Source of the DNA: Blastococcus tunisiensis
GTDB taxonomy: Bacteria; Actinomycetota; Actinomycetes; Mycobacteriales; Geodermatophilaceae
Assembly: GCF_900112815.1 (NCBI RefSeq)
Contig: NZ_FOND01000011.1
Location: 1 to 64,000, forward strand
DNA length: 64,000 nt
Direction: 5' to 3'
The position numbers were made by a program, and so were the translations under genes. This document shows, in pieces, positions 38,869 through 50,343 of this stretch. Under the pieces are notes generated by a model, which was not told the origin of the DNA, did no database searches, and was given only the letters and a program-made list of their open reading frames with translations. Position 1 is the stretch's first letter, and every line of letters starts with the position of its first letter.

Positions 38869-41322
38869 GTGGCCTCGGACGTAGCCGCAGAGGCGGCTCG
38901 CGCGCGGCCGGACCAGGCCGCGGTCGAGGAGGCCGCAGCGCCCGGCGGGCCGCCGGAGGCCGCTGCGCCGACCCGTGCCCCGCTGCCGGACCGGCCCGCG
39001 GTCCGGCGTCCGGACGACGTCGCCCCCGAGGCCGGGGACGGCGACGCGCCCCGCCGCCGGGTCCGCGACCGGCTGGCCCGCCGGATCGTGGCCAGCCCGC
39101 GCACCCCGGTCGTGCGCCCGGTGCTGGAACCACTTGCCTCCCTGCACCGGCAGAGCCACCCCAAGGCCGACCTGGCCCTGCTGCAGCGCGCCTACGACGT
39201 CGCGGAGGCCGCGCACGCCAGCCAGAAGCGCAAGAGCGGCGATCCGTACATCACCCACCCGCTCGCCGTCGCGACCATCCTCGCCGGCCTGGGGATGGAC
39301 ACCACGACCCTGGTCGCCGCCCTGCTGCACGACACGGTGGAGGACACCGGCGTCACCCTCGAGTCGATCACGGCCGACTTCGGCTCCGAGGTCACCCACC
39401 TCGTCGACGGCGTCACCAAGATCGACAAGGTCAAGCTCGGGGATGCGGCCCAGGCCGAGACGATCCGCAAGATGATCGTGGCGATGGCCCGCGACCCCCG
39501 GGTGCTGGTCATCAAGCTGGCCGACCGGCTGCACAACATGCGCACGCTGCGCTTCCTCCCGCCCGAGAAGCAGGAGAAGAAGGCGCGCGAGACCCTGGAG
39601 ATCCTGGCTCCGCTCGCCCACCGGCTGGGCATGAACACCATCAAGTGGGAGCTCGAGGACCTCGCGTTCGCCACCCTGTACCCCAAGCGCTACGACGAGA
39701 TCGTGCGGCTGGTCGCCGAGCGGGCACCCTCGCGCGACACGTACCTCGCCGAGGTCACCACTACCGTCCAGGAGCAGCTCAAGGCCGCGAAGATCGAGGC
39801 CGTCGTCACCGGCCGGCCGAAGCACTACTACTCGATCTACCAGAAGATGATCGTCCGCGGCCGGGACTTCACCGACATCTGGGACCTCGTCGGCATCCGC
39901 ATCCTGGTCGACTCGGTGCGCGACTGCTACGCCGCCCTGGGCATCATGCACGCGCACTGGCAGCCGCTGCCGGGCCGGTTCAAGGACTTCGTCGCGATGC
40001 CGAAGTTCAACATGTACCAGTCGCTGCACACGACCGTGATCGGGCCGCACGGCAAGCCGGTCGAGCTGCAGATCCGCACCCACGACATGCACCGCACGGC
40101 CGACTACGGCATCGCCGCGCACTGGAAGTACAAGGAGAGCGCGCGGGCCGGCGGCAAGCCCCGCGCCGGTGAGTTCGGTGCGCCGCCCAAGGTCGGCTCA
40201 CCCGACGACATGCTCTGGCTGCGCCAGCTGCTGGACTGGCAGCGCGAGGCCCAGGAGCCGGGCGAGTTCCTCGAGACGCTGCGCTACGACCTCGGCCCGC
40301 AGGAGGTCTTCGTCTTCACGCCCAAGGGCGACGTCATCAGCCTGCCGGGCGGGTCGACCCCCGTCGACTTCGCCTTCGCCGTGCACACCGAGGTGGGCTA
40401 CCGGACCATCGGCGCGCGGGTCAACGGATCGCTGGTGTCCCTGGACAGCACGCTGTCCAACGGCGACGTCGTCGAGGTCTTCACCTCCCGCTCGCCCACG
40501 GCCGGTCCGTCCCAGGACTGGCTGCAGTTCGTCGGGTCGTCGCGGGCCCGCACGAAGATCCGGCAGTGGTTCACCAAGGAGCGGCGGGAGGACGCGGTCG
40601 AGGCCGGCAAGGAGGCCCTGACCCGCGCCATGCGCAAGGCCGGGCTGCCGCTGCAGCGGCTGCTGGGCGGGGAGGCGCTGTCCACCCTCGCCAAGGACCT
40701 GCGCTACGCCGACGTCACCGCCCTGTACGCCGCGGTGGGGGAGAGCCAGATCTCCGCCGCCTCCGTGGTCGAGAAGCTCATCACCGCGCTCGGCGGCAGC
40801 GAGGGGGCGGCCGAGGACATCGCCGAGACCGCCATCCCGACCCGCCGGACGGTGCCGCGGCGCAGTTCCGGTGGGGACCCGGGGGTCGTCGTCCACGGGA
40901 TGAGCGACGTCTGGGCCAAGCTCGCTAAGTGCTGCACGCCGGTACCCGGCGACGACATCCTCGGCTTCGTCACCCGCGGCGGGGGAGTGAGCGTCCACCG
41001 CACCGACTGCACCAACGCCGCCGACCTGCAGCGCAAGCCCGAGCGGCTGGTGGAGGTCGAGTGGGGCTCGCAGCCGGGGTCGATGTTCCTCGTGGCGATC
41101 CAGGTCGAGGCGCTGGACCGGCACCGGCTGCTCTCCGACGTCACCAAGGCGCTGGCCGACGAGCGGGTCAACATCCTGTCCGCCTCGGTGCAGACCAGCC
41201 GCGACCGGGTGGCGATCAGCCGGTTCACCTTCGAGCTGGCCGACCCCGCCCACCTGGGCGCGGTGCTGCAGACCGTGCGGAACGTGGACGGCGTCTTCGA
41301 CGTGGAGCGCGTCACCGCCTGA
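38869..41322 (+). CDS. relA: Bifunctional (p)ppGpp synthetase/hydrolase Rel
   Basis: 817 residues. After a ~75-residue Ala/Pro-rich tail come the HD hydrolase domain ([24 protein letters not shown]), the RelA/SpoT synthetase domain ([39 protein letters not shown]), the TGS domain ([16 protein letters not shown]), a zinc-finger/helical region with [19 protein letters not shown] and a C-terminal ACT domain. Both catalytic domains look intact, so it should make and degrade (p)ppGpp, as the single long RSH of actinobacteria does. GTG start chosen from the GGCAGGAG site. The first repeat copy follows 23 bp after its stop. Confidence 0.95.
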
Positions 41323-41345
41323 GGAGGGGCCAGCCTTCCCGGCGA

Positions 41346-41404
41346 TGATCACCGGCGGATGGCTGCCCCGTGCGGCGTGTCGGGCAGCCACGCGCCGATG
41401 ATCA
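41346..41404. repeat. 59-bp palindromic repeat, copy A
   Basis: It starts with TGATCA, ends with TGATCA, and has the core CGGCGTGTCGGGCAGCCA seen in copies B-D (one mismatch at the edge: GCGGCGTG). The arms are imperfectly complementary over about 23 bp. It lies between the convergent relA and cyclophilin genes, 23 and 16 bp from their stops. Confidence 0.9.
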
Positions 41405-41420
41405 TCGGCGTCGAGGGTTC

Positions 41421-42257
41421 TCAGCCGACGACGGCCATGTCCTGGATGGTGACCGGGATCGCCGGGGCGCCGTCGCCCTCGGCCTGGCCGCCCTCGATGC
41501 CGCCGGCGGCGACCTGGTCGAGCACGGCCAGCCCGGCCTCGTCGACGGTGCCGACGACCGTGTACTCCGGGGGCAGCTGGGTGTCGACGAAGGTCAGGAA
41601 GAACTGGCTGCCGGTGGTGTTCGGCGCGCTCGTCTTGGCCATCGCGATGGTGCCGCGCGGGTAGGTCGTGCCCTCGGTGACCTCCTCGGCGTACTTGTAG
41701 GTCGGGCCGCCCGAGCCGGTGCCGGTCGGGTCGCCGCACTGCAGGACGCCGAAGCTCGGCTGCACGACCAGCCGGTGGCACGGGGTGTCGTCGTAGAAGC
41801 CCTGCTCGGTCAGGTACGTGAAGCTGGCCGCGGCGCAGGGGGCCAGCGCGCGGTCGAGGGTGAGGCCCAGCGTCCCCTGGTCGGTGACCATCTGCACCGG
41901 CACGGTGCCCTGCGCCGGGGTGGCCTCGGGCGAGGGCGGGGTGCCGACGTCGACCAGGTTGGGGTTGCCGGACTCGTCCGGGGCGTAGGTGCAGCTGACC
42001 GTGCCGTCGGCGTTGGTCGACGGCGCGGCGGCGCTGGTCGGCGTGCCCGCGGGCCCGGGGTCGGCGGTGGGATCGGTGTCGTCACCGGTGAACACGCCGC
42101 CGATCAGCAGGGCCAGCAGCACGACCACGGCGGCGGCGACCGCCCCGGCGACGATGCCCACGTTCCGGCGCCGCTTCTTGGCCTGCTCGGCGCGGCGCTC
42201 CAGCTGGCGCTGCAGGTGTCGCTGGGCGGCCTGGCGCCGCTGCTTGTTCGTGGGCAC
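41421..42257 (-). CDS. Membrane-anchored cyclophilin-type peptidyl-prolyl isomerase
   Basis: 278 residues. A basic cytoplasmic N-terminus (TNKQRRQAAQRHLQRQLERR) leads to one transmembrane helix (about residues 34-56), a Thr/Pro/Asp-rich linker, and a cyclophilin domain with T-Y-P-R-G-T-I-A-M-A-K-T and TGSQFFLTF. The active-site Arg normally found near F-H-R is present in the form C-H-R-L-V-V-Q-P-S-F. It is like mycobacterial PpiB (Rv2582). GTG 42257 is preceded by GAGGAG; the frame is open upstream, but that portion overlaps the promoter of the next gene. Confidence 0.9.
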   Translation of the reverse strand: MPTNKQRRQAAQRHLQRQLERRAEQAKKRRRNVGIVAGAVAAAVVVLLALLIGGVFTGDDTDPTADPGPAGTPTSAAAPSTNADGTVSCTYAPDESGNPNLVDVGTPPSPEATPAQGTVPVQMVTDQGTLGLTLDRALAPCAAASFTYLTEQGFYDDTPCHRLVVQPSFGVLQCGDPTGTGSGGPTYKYAEEVTEGTTYPRGTIAMAKTSAPNTTGSQFFLTFVDTQLPPEYTVVGTVDEAGLAVLDQVAAGGIEGGQAEGDGAPAIPVTIQDMAVVG

Positions 42258-42394
42258 GGTGCGGTACTCCTCGGGCGGACGAGAAACGGGGCGGGCGCGG
42301 TCGGCGGGGACGCTGCGCCCGCGGCTCGGCGGCGAGTCTAGGTGGCGGAGCTGCCGGTTCCCTGGCGGCGCCCGGGGGGTGATGCCCAGCCGCG

Positions 42395-42400
42395 TAACCT
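42395..42400 (+). promoter_or_regulatory. Leaderless -10 (TAACCT) for metallo-hydrolase gene
   Basis: TAACCT ends 6 nt before GTG 42407, with no ribosome-binding site. Confidence 0.5.
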
Positions 42401-42406
42401 GCACGG

Positions 42407-43090
42407 GTGCTCATCCGCTCCTTCCCCGCCGGCGCGTTCGGCACCAACTGCTATGCCGTGGCCTCCGGGCCGGGGCAGGAGTGCGTGGTCGTCGACCCGG
42501 GCATGGACGCCGTCGAGCCCCTGGCCCGGATGCTCGCCGACGACGGGCTCAAGCCGGTCGCGGTCGTCCTCACCCACGGGCACCTGGACCACACGTTCTC
42601 GGTGCTGCCGGTGTGCGAGGGCTACGACATCCCCGCCTACCTGCACCCGGCCGACAACGGCATGCTGTCCGACCCGGCGCGGTGGCACGGCCCGCAGCTC
42701 GCCCCGCTGATCACCGGCGTCCGGCTGCCCGACCCCTCCGAGGTGCGCACGCTCGACGACGGCGCGGTGCTGTCCCTGGCCGGCGTCGACCTCACGGTGC
42801 GGCACGCGCCGGGCCACACGCAGGGCTCGGTGATGTTCTCCCTCGACCTCGGTGAGGCGCCCGGCCTGCTGACCGGCGACGTGCTGTTCGCCGGCTCCGT
42901 CGGCCGGGTGGACCTGCCCGGCGGGTCGTGGGACGCGATGCTCACCTCGCTGCGCGACGTCGTCCTGCCGCTGGACGACGAGACGGTGGTGCTCCCGGGG
43001 CACGGTCCCGCGACGACGGTGGGGCGGGAGCGGGCCACCAACCCCTACCTGGCCGAGGCCGCGTCCGCGCCGAAGGGCCGGGGGCTCTGA
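42407..43090 (+). CDS. Metallo-beta-lactamase fold hydrolase (glyoxalase II-like)
   Basis: 227 residues. The zinc ligands are T-H-G-H-L-D-H-T (about residue 57), a later H in [11 protein letters not shown] in L-L-T-G-D-V-L-F and H in V-L-P-G-H-G-P. This is the layout of hydroxyacylglutathione hydrolase-like enzymes; in actinobacteria the thiol would be mycothiol or none. The mycobacterial counterpart is Rv2581c, also just before hisS. It is co-transcribed with hisS (TGATG overlap). Confidence 0.88.
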
Positions 43091-44349
43091 TGGACCTGCG
43101 CGCGCCCAAGGGCACGTTCGACACGCTGCCGCCGGACTCCGCCCGGTTCCTGGCCGTCCGGGACACGCTGACCGCACCGCTGCGGCGGGCCGGCTACGGC
43201 TACGTCGAGACGCCGGTGTTCGAGGAGACCGCCGTCTTCTCCCGCGGCGTGGGCGAGTCCACCGACGTGGTGACGAAGGAGATGTACACCTTCGACGACC
43301 GCGGTGGCCGCTCCCTCACGCTCCGCCCCGAGCTCACCGCGGGCCTGATGCGTGCCTTCATCGAGCACCGGCTGCACGACGGGGCCCTGCCGGTGAAGCT
43401 GTGGACGGTCGGGTCCGCCTTCCGGTACGAGCGCCCCCAGGCCGGCCGGTACCGGCACTTCACCCAGGTCGACATGGAGGCGCTCGGCGTCGACGACCCG
43501 GCGCTGGACGCCGAGGTGGTGGCGCTCGGGGTCCAGGGCTTCCGCGACCTCGGGCTGACCGACTTCGAGCTGCTGCTCACCTCGCTCGGCGACGCCACCT
43601 GCCGCCCGCAGTACCGCGAGCTGCTCGTGGCGTTCCTCGAGAAGCTCGACCTGGACGACGACACCCGGCGGCGGGCGGCGATCAACCCGCTGCGGGTGCT
43701 CGACGACAAGCGGCCCGAGGTGCAGGCCCAGCTCGACGAGGCGCCGCTGATGGTCGACCACCTCTCCGACACCACCAGGGCGCACTACGACGCCGTCCGG
43801 CAGCACCTCACCGACCTCGGGGTCGCCTGGACGGAGGCCCCCCGGCTGGTCCGCGGCCTGGACTACTACACGAAGACCACCTTCGAGTTCGTGCACTCCG
43901 GCCTCGGCGCCCAGTCGGCGATCGGCGGCGGTGGCCGCTACGACGGGCTGTCGGCCGCGCTCGGCGGTCCGGACGTCTCGGGCATCGGCTACGCCGTCGG
44001 CGTCGACCGAACGCTGCTGGCCGTCCAGGCGGAGGGCCTCGACATCGGGGCGACGGCGGGCGTGCAGGCGTTCGTCGTCCCGCTCGGTGCCGAGGCCAAG
44101 CGGCTCGCCGTCCGGCTGGTCGGGCAGCTGCGGTCTGCGGGCATCTCCGCCGACACCGTGTACGGCGACCGCGGCCTCAAGGGCGCGATGAAGGCGGCCG
44201 ACCGCTCGGGCGCCTCGCACGTCGTCGTCGTCGGCGACCGCGACCTGGCCGAGGGCGTGGGGCAGCTCAAGGACCTGCGCTCCGGCGAGCAGCACGCGGT
44301 CCCGGTCGGTGAGCTGTTCGAGCGGCTTCGTGAAAGCGTGGAGGGGTGA
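43090..44349 (+). CDS. hisS: Histidyl-tRNA synthetase
   Basis: 419 residues, class II. Motif 1 region near [16 protein letters not shown], motif 2 in [20 protein letters not shown], the HisA signature [15 protein letters not shown] and [15 protein letters not shown] (motif 3), and the C-terminal anticodon domain. ATG 43090 overlaps the preceding stop. Confidence 0.96.
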
Positions 44350-45341
44350 CTTCTTCGATGGAACAGCGGCCGCTGGGGCGGACCGGGGCAGACGTCAGCG
44401 TGATCGGGCTGGGGACGTGGCAGCTCGGCGGTGACTGGGGGGACGTCGACGACGACGCGGCCGCCGAGGTCCTCGACGCGGCGCTCGACGCGGGGGTGAC
44501 CCTGCTCGACACCGCCGACGTCTACGGCGACGGGCGCTCCGAGGAGCGCATCCGCCGGGCGCTGGTCACCCGCGACGACCGGCCGTTCGTGGCCACCAAG
44601 GCCGGGCGCCGCGCCCACCCGTTCGAGGCGGCGCAGTACACGCCGGAGAACCTGCGGGCCTGGATCGACCGGTCTCGCCGCAACCTCGGCGTCGACACCC
44701 TCGACCTCGTCCAGCTGCACTGCCCGCCGACCGCGGTGTACTCCGACCAGCGGGTCTACGACGCCCTCGACTCGTTCGTCGAGGACGGGGCGATCGCCGC
44801 CTACGGGGTCTCGGTGGAGACCGTGGCCGAAGGCCTGACGGCGCTGGAGCACCCGGGTGTGCAGACGATCCAGGTCATCCTCAACGTGTTCCGGCGCAAG
44901 CCGCTGGAGGAGCTGCTCCCCGCCGCGGCGAAGGCCGGCGTGGGCATCCTCGCCCGCGTGCCGCTGGCCAGCGGCCTGCTCACCGGCAAGTACGACGAGT
45001 CGACGACGTTCGCCGCCGACGACCACCGGAACTTCAACCGCAACGGCGAGGCCTTCGACGTCGGCGAGACCTTCGCCGGGGTGCCGTTCGAGGTGGGCGT
45101 CGCCGCCGCGCGGGAGGTGGCCGAGATCGCCGGTGACAGCGTGCCCACCGCCGCCTTCGCGCTGCGCTGGGTGATCGACCAGCCCGGCGTGACCACCGTC
45201 ATCCCCGGCGCCCGCAACGTCACCCAGGTGCGCGGCAACGTCGCCGCGGCCTCGATGGCGAACCTGTCCGACTCCCAGCTCGCCGACCTCGAGCGGGTGT
45301 ACGACGAGCGCATCCGCGCCCACGTGCACGACCGCTGGTGA
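44346..45341 (+). CDS. Aldo/keto reductase
   Basis: 331 residues. A TIM-barrel NADPH oxidoreductase with the tetrad in L-L-D-T-A-D-V-Y-G (Asp, Tyr), V-A-T-K-A-G (Lys) and V-Q-L-H-C-P (His), and an NADPH-binding region [17 protein letters not shown]. Substrate unknown. GTG 44346 overlaps the hisS stop (GTGA); ATG 44358 is an alternative. It separates hisS from aspS. Confidence 0.88.
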
Positions 45342-45370
45342 CCCCGCCCTCCCCTTCGAAAGGCACTGCC

Positions 45371-47146
45371 TTGCTCCGCACCCACGACGCCGGAACGCTG
45401 CGCGCGTCCGACGCCGGCACCACCGTCACCCTGGCCGGCTGGGTGGCCCGCCGCCGCGACCACGGCGGGGTGGTCTTCCTCGACCTGCGCGACGCCTCCG
45501 GGTACGTGCAGGTCGTCGTCCGCGAGGAGGAGGCCCACCACCTGCGCAACGAGTACTGCGTGCTCGTGACCGGTGAGGTGCGCCGCCGGCCGGAGGGCAA
45601 CGAGAACCCGGAGCTCCCGACCGGCGAGATCGAGGTCGCCACCTCGAAGCTGGAGGTGCTCTCCGCGTCGGCGCCGCTGCCGTTCCCCATCGAGACCGAC
45701 CAGGCGGCCTCCGACGACGTCCGCTACCGGTTCCGCTACCTGGACCTGCGCCGTCAGGGGCCGGCGTCGGTGCTGCGGCTGCGCTCGGAGATCAACCGGG
45801 TGGCCCGGGCGGCGATGGCGCGGCACGGGTTCACCGAGGTGGAGACGCCGAACCTGACCCGGTCCACGCCCGAGGGGGCGCGCGACTTCGTCGTCCCCGT
45901 CCGGCTGCAGCCGGGCAAGTGGTACGCCCTTCCGCAGTCGCCGCAGCTGTTCAAGCAGCTGCTGATGATCGGTGGGCTGGAGCGCTACTACCAGATCGCG
46001 CGCTGCTTCCGGGACGAGGACTTCCGCGCCGACCGCCAGCCGGAGTTCACCCAGCTGGACTTCGAGATGAGCTTCGTCGACCGCGACGACGTCCTGGCCG
46101 TCGTCGAGGACGTCGTGTCGGCGCTGTGGCGGGAGCTGGCCGGGCACGAGGTCGGCGAGATCCTGCGGATGACCTACCGCGAGGCCATGGACCGGTTCGG
46201 GTCGGACAAGCCCGACCTGCGCTTCGGCCTGGAGCTCACCGAGCTGACCTCCTTCTTCGCCGGCACCCCGTTCCGCGTGTTCCAGGCGCCCTACGTCGGT
46301 GCGGTCGTCATGCCCGGCGGCGGCTCCCAGCCGCGGCGCGCGTTCGACGCCTGGCAGGACTGGGCCAAGTCCCGGGGTGCCCGTGGCCTGGCCTACGTCA
46401 CGATCGCCGAGGACGGCGAGCTCGGCGGGCCGGTCGCCAAGAACATCTCCGACGCCGAGCGGGCCGGGCTGGTCGAGGCCGTCGGCGCGAAGCCGGGGGA
46501 CTGCGTGTTCTTCGCCGCAGGCCAGCGCCGCACCTCCCAGGAGCTGCTGGGTGCCGCGCGCAACGAGATCGCCCGCCGGCTGGAGCTGATCGCGCCGGGA
46601 TCGTGGTCGTTCCTGTTCGTCGTCGACTTCCCGATGTTCGAGGAGACCGAGGACGGCTCCTGGACGTTCATGCACCACCCCTTCACCTCGCCCACGCCGG
46701 AGTGGCGGGAGCGGTTCGCCGAGGACAAGGGCAACGCGCTGTCGGACGCCTACGACCTCGTGGTCAACGGCAACGAGCTGGCCAGCGGATCGGTGCGTAT
46801 CCACGACGCCGACCTGCAGGAGCGGGTGTTCGAGACCCTGGGCATGTCGCGCGAGGAGGCCCGCGAGCGGTTCGGGTTCTTCCTCGAGGCGTTCGCCTTC
46901 GGGCCGCCGCCGCACGCCGGTGCCGCGCTCGGCTGGGACCGGCTCACGGCGCTGCTGGCCGGGGTGGAGTCCATCCGCGAGGTGATCGCCTTCCCCAAGA
47001 CCGGGGCCGGGTTCGACCCGCTCACCGGGGCGCCCACCCCGATCACCGACGCGCAGCGCGCGGAGGCGGGTATCGACGCGAAGCCCGAGGAGCCGGCGCT
47101 GCCCGGCCAGCCGGGTGCGCCGGGACCGAGCGACCCGACGAACTGA
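45371..47146 (+). CDS. aspS: Aspartyl-tRNA synthetase
   Basis: 591 residues, class IIb, bacterial type with a GAD insertion. The OB-fold anticodon domain has [23 protein letters not shown]; motif 2 is [25 protein letters not shown] and motif 3 [16 protein letters not shown] chose TTG 45371 (start L-R-T-H-D-A-G) because GAAAGG precedes it and homologues start there; an in-frame GTG at 45338 overlaps the previous stop. Actinobacteria with GatCAB often use a non-discriminating AspRS; this cannot be judged here. Repeat copy B follows. Confidence 0.95.
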
Positions 47147-47157
47147 GGCTCATCCGG

Positions 47158-47222
47158 AGTTGATCATCGGCGGATGGCCGTGCCGGTCGGCGTGTCGGGC
47201 AGCCACCCGCCGATGATCAACT
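47158..47222. repeat. 59-bp palindromic repeat, copy B (65 bp with extended symmetry)
   Basis: The core 59 bp is 47161-47219; symmetry extends 3 bp on both sides (AGT...ACT). Left arm and right arm match over the outer 19 bases. It starts 11 bp after the aspS stop. Confidence 0.92.
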
Positions 47223-47277
47223 GACGTCCGGGGCACGGTCCGGCCGAGGCCGCCGGGCTGGTCGGTGGCCGCGCCGG

Positions 47278-47283
47278 TAGTTT
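47278..47283 (+). promoter_or_regulatory. Leaderless -10 (TAGTTT) for aminotransferase gene
   Basis: TAGTTT ends 7 nt before ATG 47291, with no ribosome-binding site. Confidence 0.5.
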
Positions 47284-47290
47284 GCATCGC

Positions 47291-48379
47291 ATGCCGCTGC
47301 GTGCCCGCACCCTGCTCGGACCCGGACCGTCCAACCCGTACCCGGAGGCGACCATCGCCCTCGGGCAGCCCCTCCTCGGACACCTCGACCCGGTGTTCCT
47401 CGGCGTCCTCGACGAGACCTCCGAGCGCCTGCGCCAGGTCTTCGGGACGGCGAACCGGCGCACCCTCCCGCTGTCGGCCACGGGATCGGCCGGCATGGAG
47501 GCCGCCTTCGTCAACACCGTCGGCCCCGGGGACGTCGTCGTCGTCGCGGTCAACGGGCTGTTCGGCCAGCGCATGGTGGACGTCGCCTCGCGCTGCGGCG
47601 CCGAGGTGGTCGCCGTGGAGCACGAGTGGGGGCAGCCGGTCGACGCCGAGCGCGTGCTGGCCGCCCATCCCGCGCCGAAGCTCATCGCCGCCGTCCACGC
47701 CGAGACCTCGACCGGGGTGCGGTCGGACCTCGAGCCGCTGGCGGCCGGCAAGGGCGACGCGCTCCTCCTGGCCGACTGCGTGACCTCGCTGGGCGGCATC
47801 CCCGTGCAGCTGGACGACTGGGGGGTCGACCTGGCGTACTCCGGCTCGCAGAAGTGCCTCGGCGTGGCCCCCGGGCTGGCGCCGTTCACCATCAACGACC
47901 GCGCCTGGGAGCGGCGGATCGAGAAGCCGCAGAGCTGGTACCTCGACCTGGGCCTGCTCGGCGGGTACGCGGGCGAGGCGGCGGGCGCGGGGCGGACCTA
48001 CCACCACACCGCGCCCACCGGCATGGTCGTGTCCCTGCACGCCGCGCTGGGCCGGATCCTCGAGGAGGGCCTGGACGCCGTCCACGCCCGCCACGCCGAG
48101 GCCGGCCGGCTGCTGCACGAGGGGCTGGCGCAGCTGGGGCTGGAGCTCTTCGCCGCCGAGGGGTTCCGGCTGCCCGAGCTGACCACGGTGAAGGTCCCCG
48201 ACGGCGTCGACTCGGCCGCCGTGCGCAAGGAGCTGCTCGAGCGCTTCGACGTCGAGATCGGCGGGGGCGTGGGCCCCTACGCGGCGACGGTCTGGCGGAT
48301 CGGCCTCATGGGTCCCAACGCCGCACCCGACAAGGTCGCGCTGGTGCTGGCCGCGCTGAAGGAGCTCCTGGGCCGCTGA
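47291..48379 (+). CDS. Class V PLP-dependent aminotransferase (alanine-glyoxylate / serine-pyruvate type)
   Basis: 362 residues. It opens with L-L-G-P-G-P-S-N-P-Y-P and has the substrate-binding G-S-A-G-M-E-A-A-F (PLP phosphate), the V-H-A-E-T-S-T-G-V segment, A-D-C-V-T-S-L-G-G and the Schiff-base Lys in YSGSQKCLGVAPG. Family members transfer the amino group from alanine or serine to glyoxylate. ATG 47291 is placed 7 nt after a -10. Lies between repeat copies B and C. Confidence 0.9.
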   Translation: MPLRARTLLGPGPSNPYPEATIALGQPLLGHLDPVFLGVLDETSERLRQVFGTANRRTLPLSATGSAGMEAAFVNTVGPGDVVVVAVNGLFGQRMVDVASRCGAEVVAVEHEWGQPVDAERVLAAHPAPKLIAAVHAETSTGVRSDLEPLAAGKGDALLLADCVTSLGGIPVQLDDWGVDLAYSGSQKCLGVAPGLAPFTINDRAWERRIEKPQSWYLDLGLLGGYAGEAAGAGRTYHHTAPTGMVVSLHAALGRILEEGLDAVHARHAEAGRLLHEGLAQLGLELFAAEGFRLPELTTVKVPDGVDSAAVRKELLERFDVEIGGGVGPYAATVWRIGLMGPNAAPDKVALVLAALKELLGR

Positions 48380-48395
48380 GCGCGGTACTTCCCGT

Positions 48396-48454
48396 TGATC
48401 ATCGGCGGGTGGCTGCGACAATCGGCGTGTCGCGCAGCCATCCGCCGATGATCA
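48396..48454. repeat. 59-bp palindromic repeat, copy C
   Basis: Same length and orientation as A and B; the core reads TCGGCGTGTCGCGCAGCCA. It fills the gap between two convergent genes, 16 bp after one stop and 7 bp from the other. Confidence 0.9.
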
Positions 48455-48461
48455 CCGTGCA

Positions 48462-49325
48462 TCAGGGACGCCAGCCTCGGCTGAGCAGTGCGCGCCGAGT
48501 GCGGTCGAGGACCACCGCCGGGCCCCGGACGTGACGAGCCGCGAAGCGCAGCGTCAGCCAGCCGTCGGCGGCCATGAGCGAGTACCGGTCGACGTCCCGC
48601 CCGAACTGGTCGGCGTCCGCGTGCTGCCGGCCCTCGTACTCGAGCGCGATCTTCCACTCCTCGTAGCCGAGGTCGGCATGGACCACCTCGGCGCCCCAGC
48701 GGTCGTGGACCGGCACCTGTGGCCGGGGGTCGGGCAGATCGCTGGTCACCAGCCAGTAGCGCATGCGGCTCTCCGGCGCTGACATGGCCAGGGGAGAGAG
48801 CAGCGGAGCGCACGCCCGTGCGCGGACGACACCGCGGACGCGAGCACCCCGGGCCAGGCGCTCGGCGAGGGAAGCGGCCGTCACACGCTCCCTCCGTAGC
48901 AGCGCATCGCCGACCGCCACGAGGTCCGCCGGGCACAGCGACGACGCCAGGTCGAGGAACGTCTGGGGTCCTGCCGTGACGCGTAGCCCGCCGAGGTCCA
49001 CGACGTCCACCTCCGCCAGCCGGCGGGTGTGGACCACGAGCTCCGCACGCTGCGGCAGCACCCGGCGCGGCGTGAGGGCGACGTGCGGTCGGCGCGGTGG
49101 GTCGATCGGTGCACCGAGCAGTGCAGCGGCGGTGGCGTGGCTGAAGGCGGCGTCGTCGGGCAGCACGGTGCTCAGCAGCATCAACCGGTCGTGTTCGTCG
49201 ATCGCGTCGTCGAGCTGGACCACCAGGTCGTGGGCGAGCCGCACGAACCGGGGCCCGCGGAGCTGACCGCGGGTGAACCCGGCCGCGCGCGCGGAGGCGG
49301 CGGAGTACGTCGGAGGCAGAGACAT
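48462..49325 (-). CDS. DUF559 nuclease-like protein with AbiEi-type N-terminal region
   Basis: 287 residues. The N-terminal ~140 residues (R-x2-R-G-P-R-F-V-R-L; F-S-H-A-T-A-A-A-L-L-G; V-V-H-T-R-R-L) resemble the antitoxin-like AbiEi region common in actinobacteria. The C-terminal ~100 residues look like a DUF559/Vsr-type PD-(D/E)xK nuclease: E-S-R-M-R-Y-W-L, then V-V-H-A-D-L-G-Y-E-E-W-K-I-A-L-E-Y-E-G-R-Q-H. Such genes occur in many copies and are of unknown function. No partner toxin is adjacent. It lies between repeat copies C and D, an accessory-like spot. Confidence 0.75.
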   Translation of the reverse strand: MSLPPTYSAASARAAGFTRGQLRGPRFVRLAHDLVVQLDDAIDEHDRLMLLSTVLPDDAAFSHATAAALLGAPIDPPRRPHVALTPRRVLPQRAELVVHTRRLAEVDVVDLGGLRVTAGPQTFLDLASSLCPADLVAVGDALLRRERVTAASLAERLARGARVRGVVRARACAPLLSPLAMSAPESRMRYWLVTSDLPDPRPQVPVHDRWGAEVVHADLGYEEWKIALEYEGRQHADADQFGRDVDRYSLMAADGWLTLRFAARHVRGPAVVLDRTRRALLSRGWRP

Positions 49326-49414
49326 CCGGCGACGATCGGGCGTCGGGCGACGCCACCCGTGTGCCCGGCGTCATCTGTGGACAGCGAACTCTCCTGTGGA
49401 TCTGCCGTGCTGCG

Positions 49415-49473
49415 CGATCATCGGCACGTGGCTGCCCGACACGCCGACGGCGGCAACCATTCGCCGATGATCA
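49415..49473. repeat. 59-bp palindromic repeat, copy D (inverted)
   Basis: Reverse complement of the A-C orientation. Its terminal TGATCA (49468-49473) contains the stop codon TGA of the adjacent minus-strand aldo/keto reductase gene. Confidence 0.9.
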
Positions 49474-50343
49474 ACCCGCGTTCAGGCAGGCGAGCTGGTC
49501 GTCGGACAACGTGAGGTGGGTGGCGGCGGCCGAGTCCCGGATGGACTCCGGGCGGGAGGCGCCGGGGATGGGCAGGACGACGTCGGACTGGGCGAGGTGC
49601 CAGGCCAGCGTCACCTGGTACACCGAGACGCCGAGCTCGCCGGCCACCTCGGCGAACGCCGGTGCCGCGGCGTCGAGCGAGCCGGCCGCCGACACCCCGC
49701 CGAACGGGCTCCAGGGCAGCCAGGCCAGCCCGTGCGCCGCGCAGTGCGCGAGCTCGCCGGCCGAGGAGCGCCAGCCGGGGGAGAACTGGTTCTGCACGCT
49801 GACCAGCGCCGGCCCGAGGATCGCCCGGGCGGCGTCGATCTGGGCGATGTCGGCGTTGGAGATGCCCACCATCCGCACCAGGCCGTCGTCGTGCAGCGAC
49901 CGCAGGGCGCCCATCGAGTCCTCCCACGGCGTCGCCGGGTCGGGCCGGTGGAACTGGTAGAGGCCGATCGCGTCGACGTGCAGCCGCCGCAGCGACGCCT
50001 CGCAGGCCCGCCGCAGGTAGGCCGGCGACCCGTCCAGCTCCCAGTCGGTGCCCCGCCGGGTGTGGCCACCCTTCGTCGCCACCAGCACCGAGGAGGTGTC
50101 GCCGTAGCTGCGCAGCGCGAGCGCCACCAGCTCCTCGTTGTGCCCGAACTCGCTCTCGTCCCGGGCATAGGCGTCCGCGGTGTCGATGAGGGTGACGCCG
50201 GCGTCCAGGGCTGCGTGGACGGTGGCCTCCGCGTCGGTGGGGCTCGGGCGGTCCTGCTTGGTGGACAGGGGCATGGCGCCCAGGCCGATGGCCCCGACGT
50301 CGAGCCGGCCAACGGTGTCGTTCCCGATGCTTCGCTGCTGCAT
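49471..50343 (-). CDS. Aldo/keto reductase (second)
   Basis: 290 residues. Conserved residues: L-I-D-T-A-D-A-Y (Asp, Tyr), V-A-T-K-G-G (Lys) and G-L-Y-Q-F-H-R-P-D (His), with [10 protein letters not shown] for NADPH. Not a close copy of the one at 44346. No ribosome-binding site or clear -10 is seen for ATG 50343, so the start may lie a little further in. It is divergent from rarA with 34 bp between starts. Its stop codon lies in repeat copy D. Confidence 0.85.

Follow-up and report, generated by a model that had tools for sequence, protein, structure and literature searches.

The 64-kb window (the whole stretch of Blastococcus tunisiensis DNA that was analysed) contains four copies of a 59-bp palindrome at 41346, 47161, 48396 and 49415, free of indels, just as the sequence-only reading had placed them. 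Two copies stand alone and two bracket a nuclease gene. The features are listed below; the names relA/spoT-like and peptidyl-prolyl isomerase-like were taken from translations read by eye.

41346..41404, + strand: solo 59-bp palindrome between convergent relA/spoT-like and peptidyl-prolyl isomerase-like genes
47161..47219, + strand: 59-bp palindrome standing alone, flanked by aspS and an aminotransferase gene
48396..48454, + strand: 59-bp palindrome closing the unit downstream; the nuclease stop codon is 7 bp away
48462..49325, - strand: nuclease gene, 287 aa, with an AbiEi-like N-terminal region (~1-177) and a Vsr/DUF559-type nuclease domain (~181-285)
49376..49400, - strand: two TCCACA boxes, 19 bp apart, ahead of the nuclease start
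49415..49473, - strand: 59-bp palindrome, upstream end of the unit, before the nuclease gene; its TGA is the reductase stop codon

The arms are common to the copies, as had been claimed: a search of the window with the arm pattern (<=3 mismatches) gave 10 matches where 0.13 were expected, eight of them the arms of the four copies and the other two outside these copies. All four copies fold on both strands, with energies between -31 and -45.4 kcal/mol and z-scores between -4.3 and -7.3; one fold of the eight was equalled by 2 of 200 shuffles. The proposed arm hairpin is seen in these folds, with paired arms of about 21 bp rather than the ~23 bp given earlier. The first three copies lie 23, 14 and 16 bp after a stop codon, within the 0-25 bp originally described, whereas the fourth provides the stop itself: the aldo/keto reductase gene at 49471-50343 ends on the TGA of the palindrome. 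The copies at 41346 and 48396 are indeed the two that sit between convergent genes, and the half with the core is the more conserved one, columns 28-36 and 40-45 being invariant in 11 genome copies. In the interval 41000-50000 no Rfam family scored above its gathering score; the five matches with E <=1 were microRNA models, far below theirs.

In agreement with the earlier reading, no classical transposase was seen in the window, and the candidate cognate enzyme is the nuclease encoded between copies 3 and 4. Among the chains compared, its fold matches were to the homing endonuclease I-Bth0305I, Vsr and AbiEi, the AbiEi match covering residues 41-177, with residues 1-40 matched only within a weaker Rv2827c alignment. 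The EDxHD hallmark is present: a catalytic fold like that of Vsr in which acidic and histidine residues are conserved, with E185, D218, E229, H235 and D244 invariant. Domain matches among 58 relatives were to DUF559 (48), MTES_1575 (6) and Vsr (one). Paired TCCACA boxes, 18-19 bp apart ahead of the start, occur in 54 of 80 family members, in none of the shuffled sequences and in 0 of 53 distant homologs and paralogs. These boxes resemble actinobacterial DnaA boxes; if that is what they are, expression of the nuclease would be tied to replication.

The 59-bp palindrome across genomes

The conserved-half pattern (<=3 mismatches) was found at 12 places in the genome, 11 of which are full copies, while the reversed pattern was found at none. 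A covariance model built from these 11 copies recovered 14 full-length copies, the weakest with an E value of 3.5e-14 on its better strand and the next match at only 2.4e-4. Gene context was read with a home-made gene caller for 25 copies (14 from this genome and 11 from three relatives). Convergent genes flank 11 of them, co-directional genes 14 and divergent genes none; the background, 112 gaps of >=40 bp at the same loci, is 22 convergent, 67 co-directional and 23 divergent. The four copies of the window are thus neither the only ones in the genome nor free of positional bias. In 10 of the 25 copies the first TGA of the palindrome is the stop codon of the neighbouring gene. The flanks of the 11 copies are mostly GT/AC extensions of the palindrome, and no target-site duplications were noticed by eye in genome copies or in slot comparisons. 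The suggestion that the palindromes are REP/MITE-like holds in that they are dispersed, hairpin-forming and mostly at gene 3' ends, but the RAYT/IS200-type enzyme was not found; the genome had no PF01797 match (E <= 0.01) in a search that was positive in 6 of 14 control genomes.

At one locus (L058 4878-5921; G000 C43 5877-6920) a ketopantoate-reductase-like gene lies inside an inverted 59-bp pair, without the nuclease. At arm position 12 an A is present in all five solo copies read from G010 (L071-L073) and a G in 11 aligned G000 copies; at this position, copies within one genome look alike.

Among the 11 copies of this genome no covariation between the arms was found. Among 47 copies of the 59-bp type from many genomes it was present on three of five measures, with 46 of the 47 preselected as palindromic and so biased towards pairing. 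Cells with two-sided changes numbered 51 against 23.3 in shuffled data (0/500) and the covariation score was 0.159 against 0.096 (0/500); pairs with double changes (7 vs 6.1 shuffled) and pair types (21 vs 19.7) showed no excess.

Copy number follows the nuclease gene. With strands counted apart, the 26 genomes assigned by eye as having a 59-type gene had a median of 12.5 covariance-model matches, and the median in the 86 genomes without one was 0, with 47 having none and nine having at least five. Those nine, in which no 59-type gene was found, are exceptions that could be fossils or reflect missed genes. The highest counts were 31 and 46 matches in two genomes, strands again counted apart.

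Nuclease genes and the palindromes at their ends

Of the 112 family genomes, 82 encode the protein (E <= 1e-40), 68 of them in a single copy; the organisms named belong to Blastococcus, Geodermatophilus, Modestobacter, Klenkia, Goekera and Trujillonella. The fetched loci gave 89 genes, of which 11 partial ones were dropped, leaving 78 near-full genes from 64 genomes. Hairpins (score >=10) were present at both ends of 63 of these 78 genes, compared with 1 of 397 control genes. Upstream hairpins end 81-171 bp before the start codon (median 99), mostly 87-124 bp, and for downstream hairpins the start lies between -20 and 76 bp relative to the end of the stop codon (median -3). Fifteen of the 78 genes lacked a qualifying hairpin at one end or, in a single case, at both. 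One-sided hairpins in control genes amounted to 23/397 upstream and 60/397 downstream, 36 of the latter at a single gene. The 397 control genes are the proper control here; a reversed-sequence control (0 vs 121) tests the TGATCA ends only, since a reversed hairpin is still a hairpin.

The two ends of a gene also match each other. Own-end similarity averaged 40.0, against 18.1 when permuted (maximum in 2000 permutations 22.4), the own partner palindrome ranked first for 28 of 64 and within the top five for 50 of 64, and own ends scored above crossed ends in every one of the 14 same-genome gene pairs. Palindrome similarity correlated with protein identity (rho 0.636, n=63; maximum in 1000 permutations 0.13), and this correlation persisted when aspS distance was removed (partial 0.64, n=59, 0/500 permutations), while palindrome similarity and aspS correlated at 0.06. 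Mapped onto a protein tree of the 78 sequences, the palindrome classes require 30 changes, compared with 53.5 when shuffled. The classes were assigned by approximate text rules (20 labels, some of them mixed), and we use only the clustering and two clades: one of 30 rows (100/100), in which every one of the 18 rows labelled 59 falls, and one of 19 rows (100/99), whose members all have the GAGTGAGCAG type at one or both ends. At one locus, L077 3640-4724 (G002), a GAGTGAGCAG-type palindrome lies upstream and a 59-type palindrome downstream, as in a hybrid or in one type inserted beside another.

When the protein was divided by region, the partial correlation was 0.42 for residues 1-60, 0.35 for 61-120, 0.17 for 121-180, 0.04 for 181-235 and 0.08 for 236-287. 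The N-terminal 120 residues gave 0.53 and the rest 0.34, each against the other, and the N-terminal value was the higher in 100 of 100 entropy-matched draws. An AbiEi-like reader fits this N-terminal link, because AbiEi proteins bind inverted repeats (PMC7319586); this is a fit and not proof.

Nine further proteins of this genome matched the nuclease. Two of them (29-33% identity) have their own unrelated palindromes, of 57 and 59 bp, at both ends, and no matching palindrome pair was found at the other seven. Both of these palindromes are dispersed (27 and 26 arm matches vs 1 control match each), and their solo copies lean to gene ends, 4 of 21 lying between divergent genes. In a sample of the class, homologs were present in 45 of 60 genomes, two of which had 13 and 14. 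The class set comprised 48 distinct loci, 45 from the class search and three paralogs from this genome, after two cut-window loci and two duplicates had been dropped. Matching ends were found at 35 of the 48 loci; crossed pairs matched in 16 of 2256 cases, and none of five resampled sets had more than 1 match in 48. Two strong hairpins were present at 19 of the 48, and for 17 of these 19 the own partner was the best; in one genome 6 of 14 paralogs had two strong hairpins, with scores of 24-39 for the own partner and <=11 for others.

The link between nuclease and palindromes is solid, and on present comparisons the enzyme linked to them is the AbiEi-Vsr/DUF559 nuclease between copies 3 and 4. 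Recognition, cutting and mobility we infer from these patterns.

Chromosomal slots and lone palindromes

The nuclease gene was present at 63 of 84 aspS loci. In all 59 of these loci that extend to the next marker, aspS is on one side of it and the same reductase gene on the other; in four of them it is reversed. Unrelated units occupy this slot in close relatives: with aspS DNA ~96% identical, L201 has a unit of the 59-bp type and L211 one of the GAGTGAGCAG type, and at the same level of identity L154 has the 59-bp type, L156 the GAGTGAGCAG type and L142 a lone palindrome. Four of the 21 gene-less aspS loci were read; L213, L142 and L209 (degenerate) each have one palindrome and L153 has none. 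Units outside the aspS slot, at 22 loci, fall into four clusters of 3, 4, 4 and 8 and three singletons. A third copy adjoins some units (in the window, L131 and L208). In L145, L166 and L122, the unit is separated from the aminotransferase or aspS gene by ~1 kb of extra coding-like DNA.

Solo sites are often common to related species (five sets, making up 11 of 20 fetched loci), so turnover is slow; a further site is common to two genomes placed in different genera (L400 and L076). One orthologous site lacks the palindrome, its sequence being too diverged for exact insertion borders. Overall, units appear to be exchanged, and solo sites are old.

A proposed two-part element, its alternatives and known systems

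The sequence comparisons show palindromes and nuclease to be one inherited unit, with arm sequences specific to the nuclease subfamily; a few recurrent chromosomal slots hold the unit, unrelated versions replace each other there, and a slot that lacks the gene can retain a single palindrome. On balance we think it probable that the four repeats are part of a two-part element in which a nuclease gene has a copy of its own palindrome on either side and further copies of that palindrome stand alone elsewhere. The AbiEi-like N-terminal region would recognise the arms of its own palindrome, and the Vsr/EDxHD-type domain would cut DNA at or near that palindrome or at an empty slot. Repair would then transfer a copy of the unit to the corresponding slot on another chromosome, which is homing. 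Solo palindromes may have been seeded or left at gene ends, where they would be tolerated and may act as terminators. In favour of the two-part element we count the hairpins at both ends, the own-end match, co-divergence, slot swaps, lone palindromes, copy number, folds, invariant residues, the weight of the link in residues 1-120, paralogs and class loci. Against it we count slow turnover, the nine exception genomes, the L058 pair, the 15/78 failures, the pair at only 2/9 paralogs, the C-terminal link of 0.34, the partial AbiEi match and the lack of target-site duplication.

It is possible, if doubtful, that the unit moves only as a whole and that solo palindromes are leftovers of gene loss between two palindromes, with no independent spread. 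Three gene-less slots with a single palindrome agree with this, as do solo sites that are old and common to species, yet many lost units would be needed to account for 14 copies in a genome, for the third copies (window, L131, L208) and for 31 and 46 matches. The AbiEi-like region might instead regulate its own gene through the palindromes, solo copies being extra operators and the nuclease acting elsewhere; AbiEi antitoxins bind inverted repeats in their own promoters (PMC7319586) and one palindrome is mostly 87-124 bp before the start. A second palindrome at the stop codon, together with solo copies at 3' ends and 0/25 between divergent genes, makes this unlikely.

The palindromes number only tens per genome and are mostly at gene ends, unlike usual restriction sites, so we think it quite unlikely that the nuclease is a restriction-like defence or an addiction module for which palindromes mark self or act as a sensor, even with 13 and 14 paralogs in two genomes, a specificity region largely separate from the catalytic domain, alternating versions in slots and the AbiEi-like region. 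Hairpins acting as RNA, whether to bind the nuclease as a ligand, to guide it or to inhibit it, would suit arms that co-vary across genomes (51 cells vs 23.3 shuffled) and hairpins at set distances from the gene. That reading is very unlikely in view of the missing covariation among 11 copies of one genome, of double-change pairs at 7 vs 6.1 shuffled and of the inverted ends of the 59-bp type, whose transcripts would differ in loop strand. Least probable of all are bidirectional terminators kept by the host, with the nuclease link secondary: arm sequence tracks the nuclease and not the species, several types coexist per genome, and the matching palindromes that each nuclease gene has of its own are left unexplained, against which stand the strong hairpins and the 3'-end position, 11/25 between convergent genes.

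Returning to the two-part element, we lean slightly towards its being a selfish element found across the class Actinomycetes. Its nuclease, of the AbiEi-Vsr kind and free-standing, would have a private palindrome as its address on either side; address and reader region would change together, so that a dozen systems, none recognising another, could share a genome, each scattering its own hairpins at gene ends. Position, matching ends, co-divergence and copy number connect a nuclease family unrelated to RAYT with palindromes of its own. If the interpretation is true, the origin of such repeats becomes directly testable, a job is proposed for part of DUF559 (unknown function in Pfam), and many natural address-reader pairs become available for learning a recognition code. 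No paper linking DUF559 or AbiEi nucleases to palindromic repeats was found in the open literature (titles and abstract starts, with few subscription papers), which does not prove novelty; a large family of short palindromes, each type tied to the nuclease gene it brackets, is apparently undescribed.

The closest comparison is with REP/RAYT REPtrons, in which a mostly single-copy gene is flanked by a dispersed palindrome, with many palindromes, type-specific pairing and 3'-end positions (PMC8266576, PMC3733652). The present units resemble these (TnpA-REP) in having their own dispersed palindromes around a mostly single-copy gene, type-specific pairing and positions at 3' ends. They differ in the enzyme, an AbiEi-Vsr nuclease here and an HUH tyrosine transposase in the REPtron, and in palindrome length, 59-78 bp compared with 20-40 bp; no GTAG tetranucleotide of the REP/RAYT kind was seen by eye in the 11 copies or their flanks (<=16 bases). 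Integron attC sites (59-base element) are alike in length and 3' position; the copies here stand behind housekeeping-type genes.

AbiEi antitoxins of type IV toxin-antitoxin systems (AbiE) have the AbiEi-like fold in common with this protein, in which a nuclease domain follows, and the neighbours in the slot table are housekeeping-type genes (aspS, aminotransferase, reductase). Vsr repairs mismatches, and DUF559/MTES_1575/Vsr-like nucleases are kin by domain; what is added here is the link to palindromic repeats. Unlike free-standing EDxHD homing endonucleases (I-Bth0305I), this gene has cognate palindromes on both sides, which are also found on their own, and its nuclease domain follows an AbiEi-like region. 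Indirect signs of homing may be seen in the slot swaps and the lone palindromes. With the RAYT search negative, the layout is REPtron-like and the action perhaps homing-endonuclease-like, and the whole looks like a selfish element whose parts differ from those of known bacterial ones.
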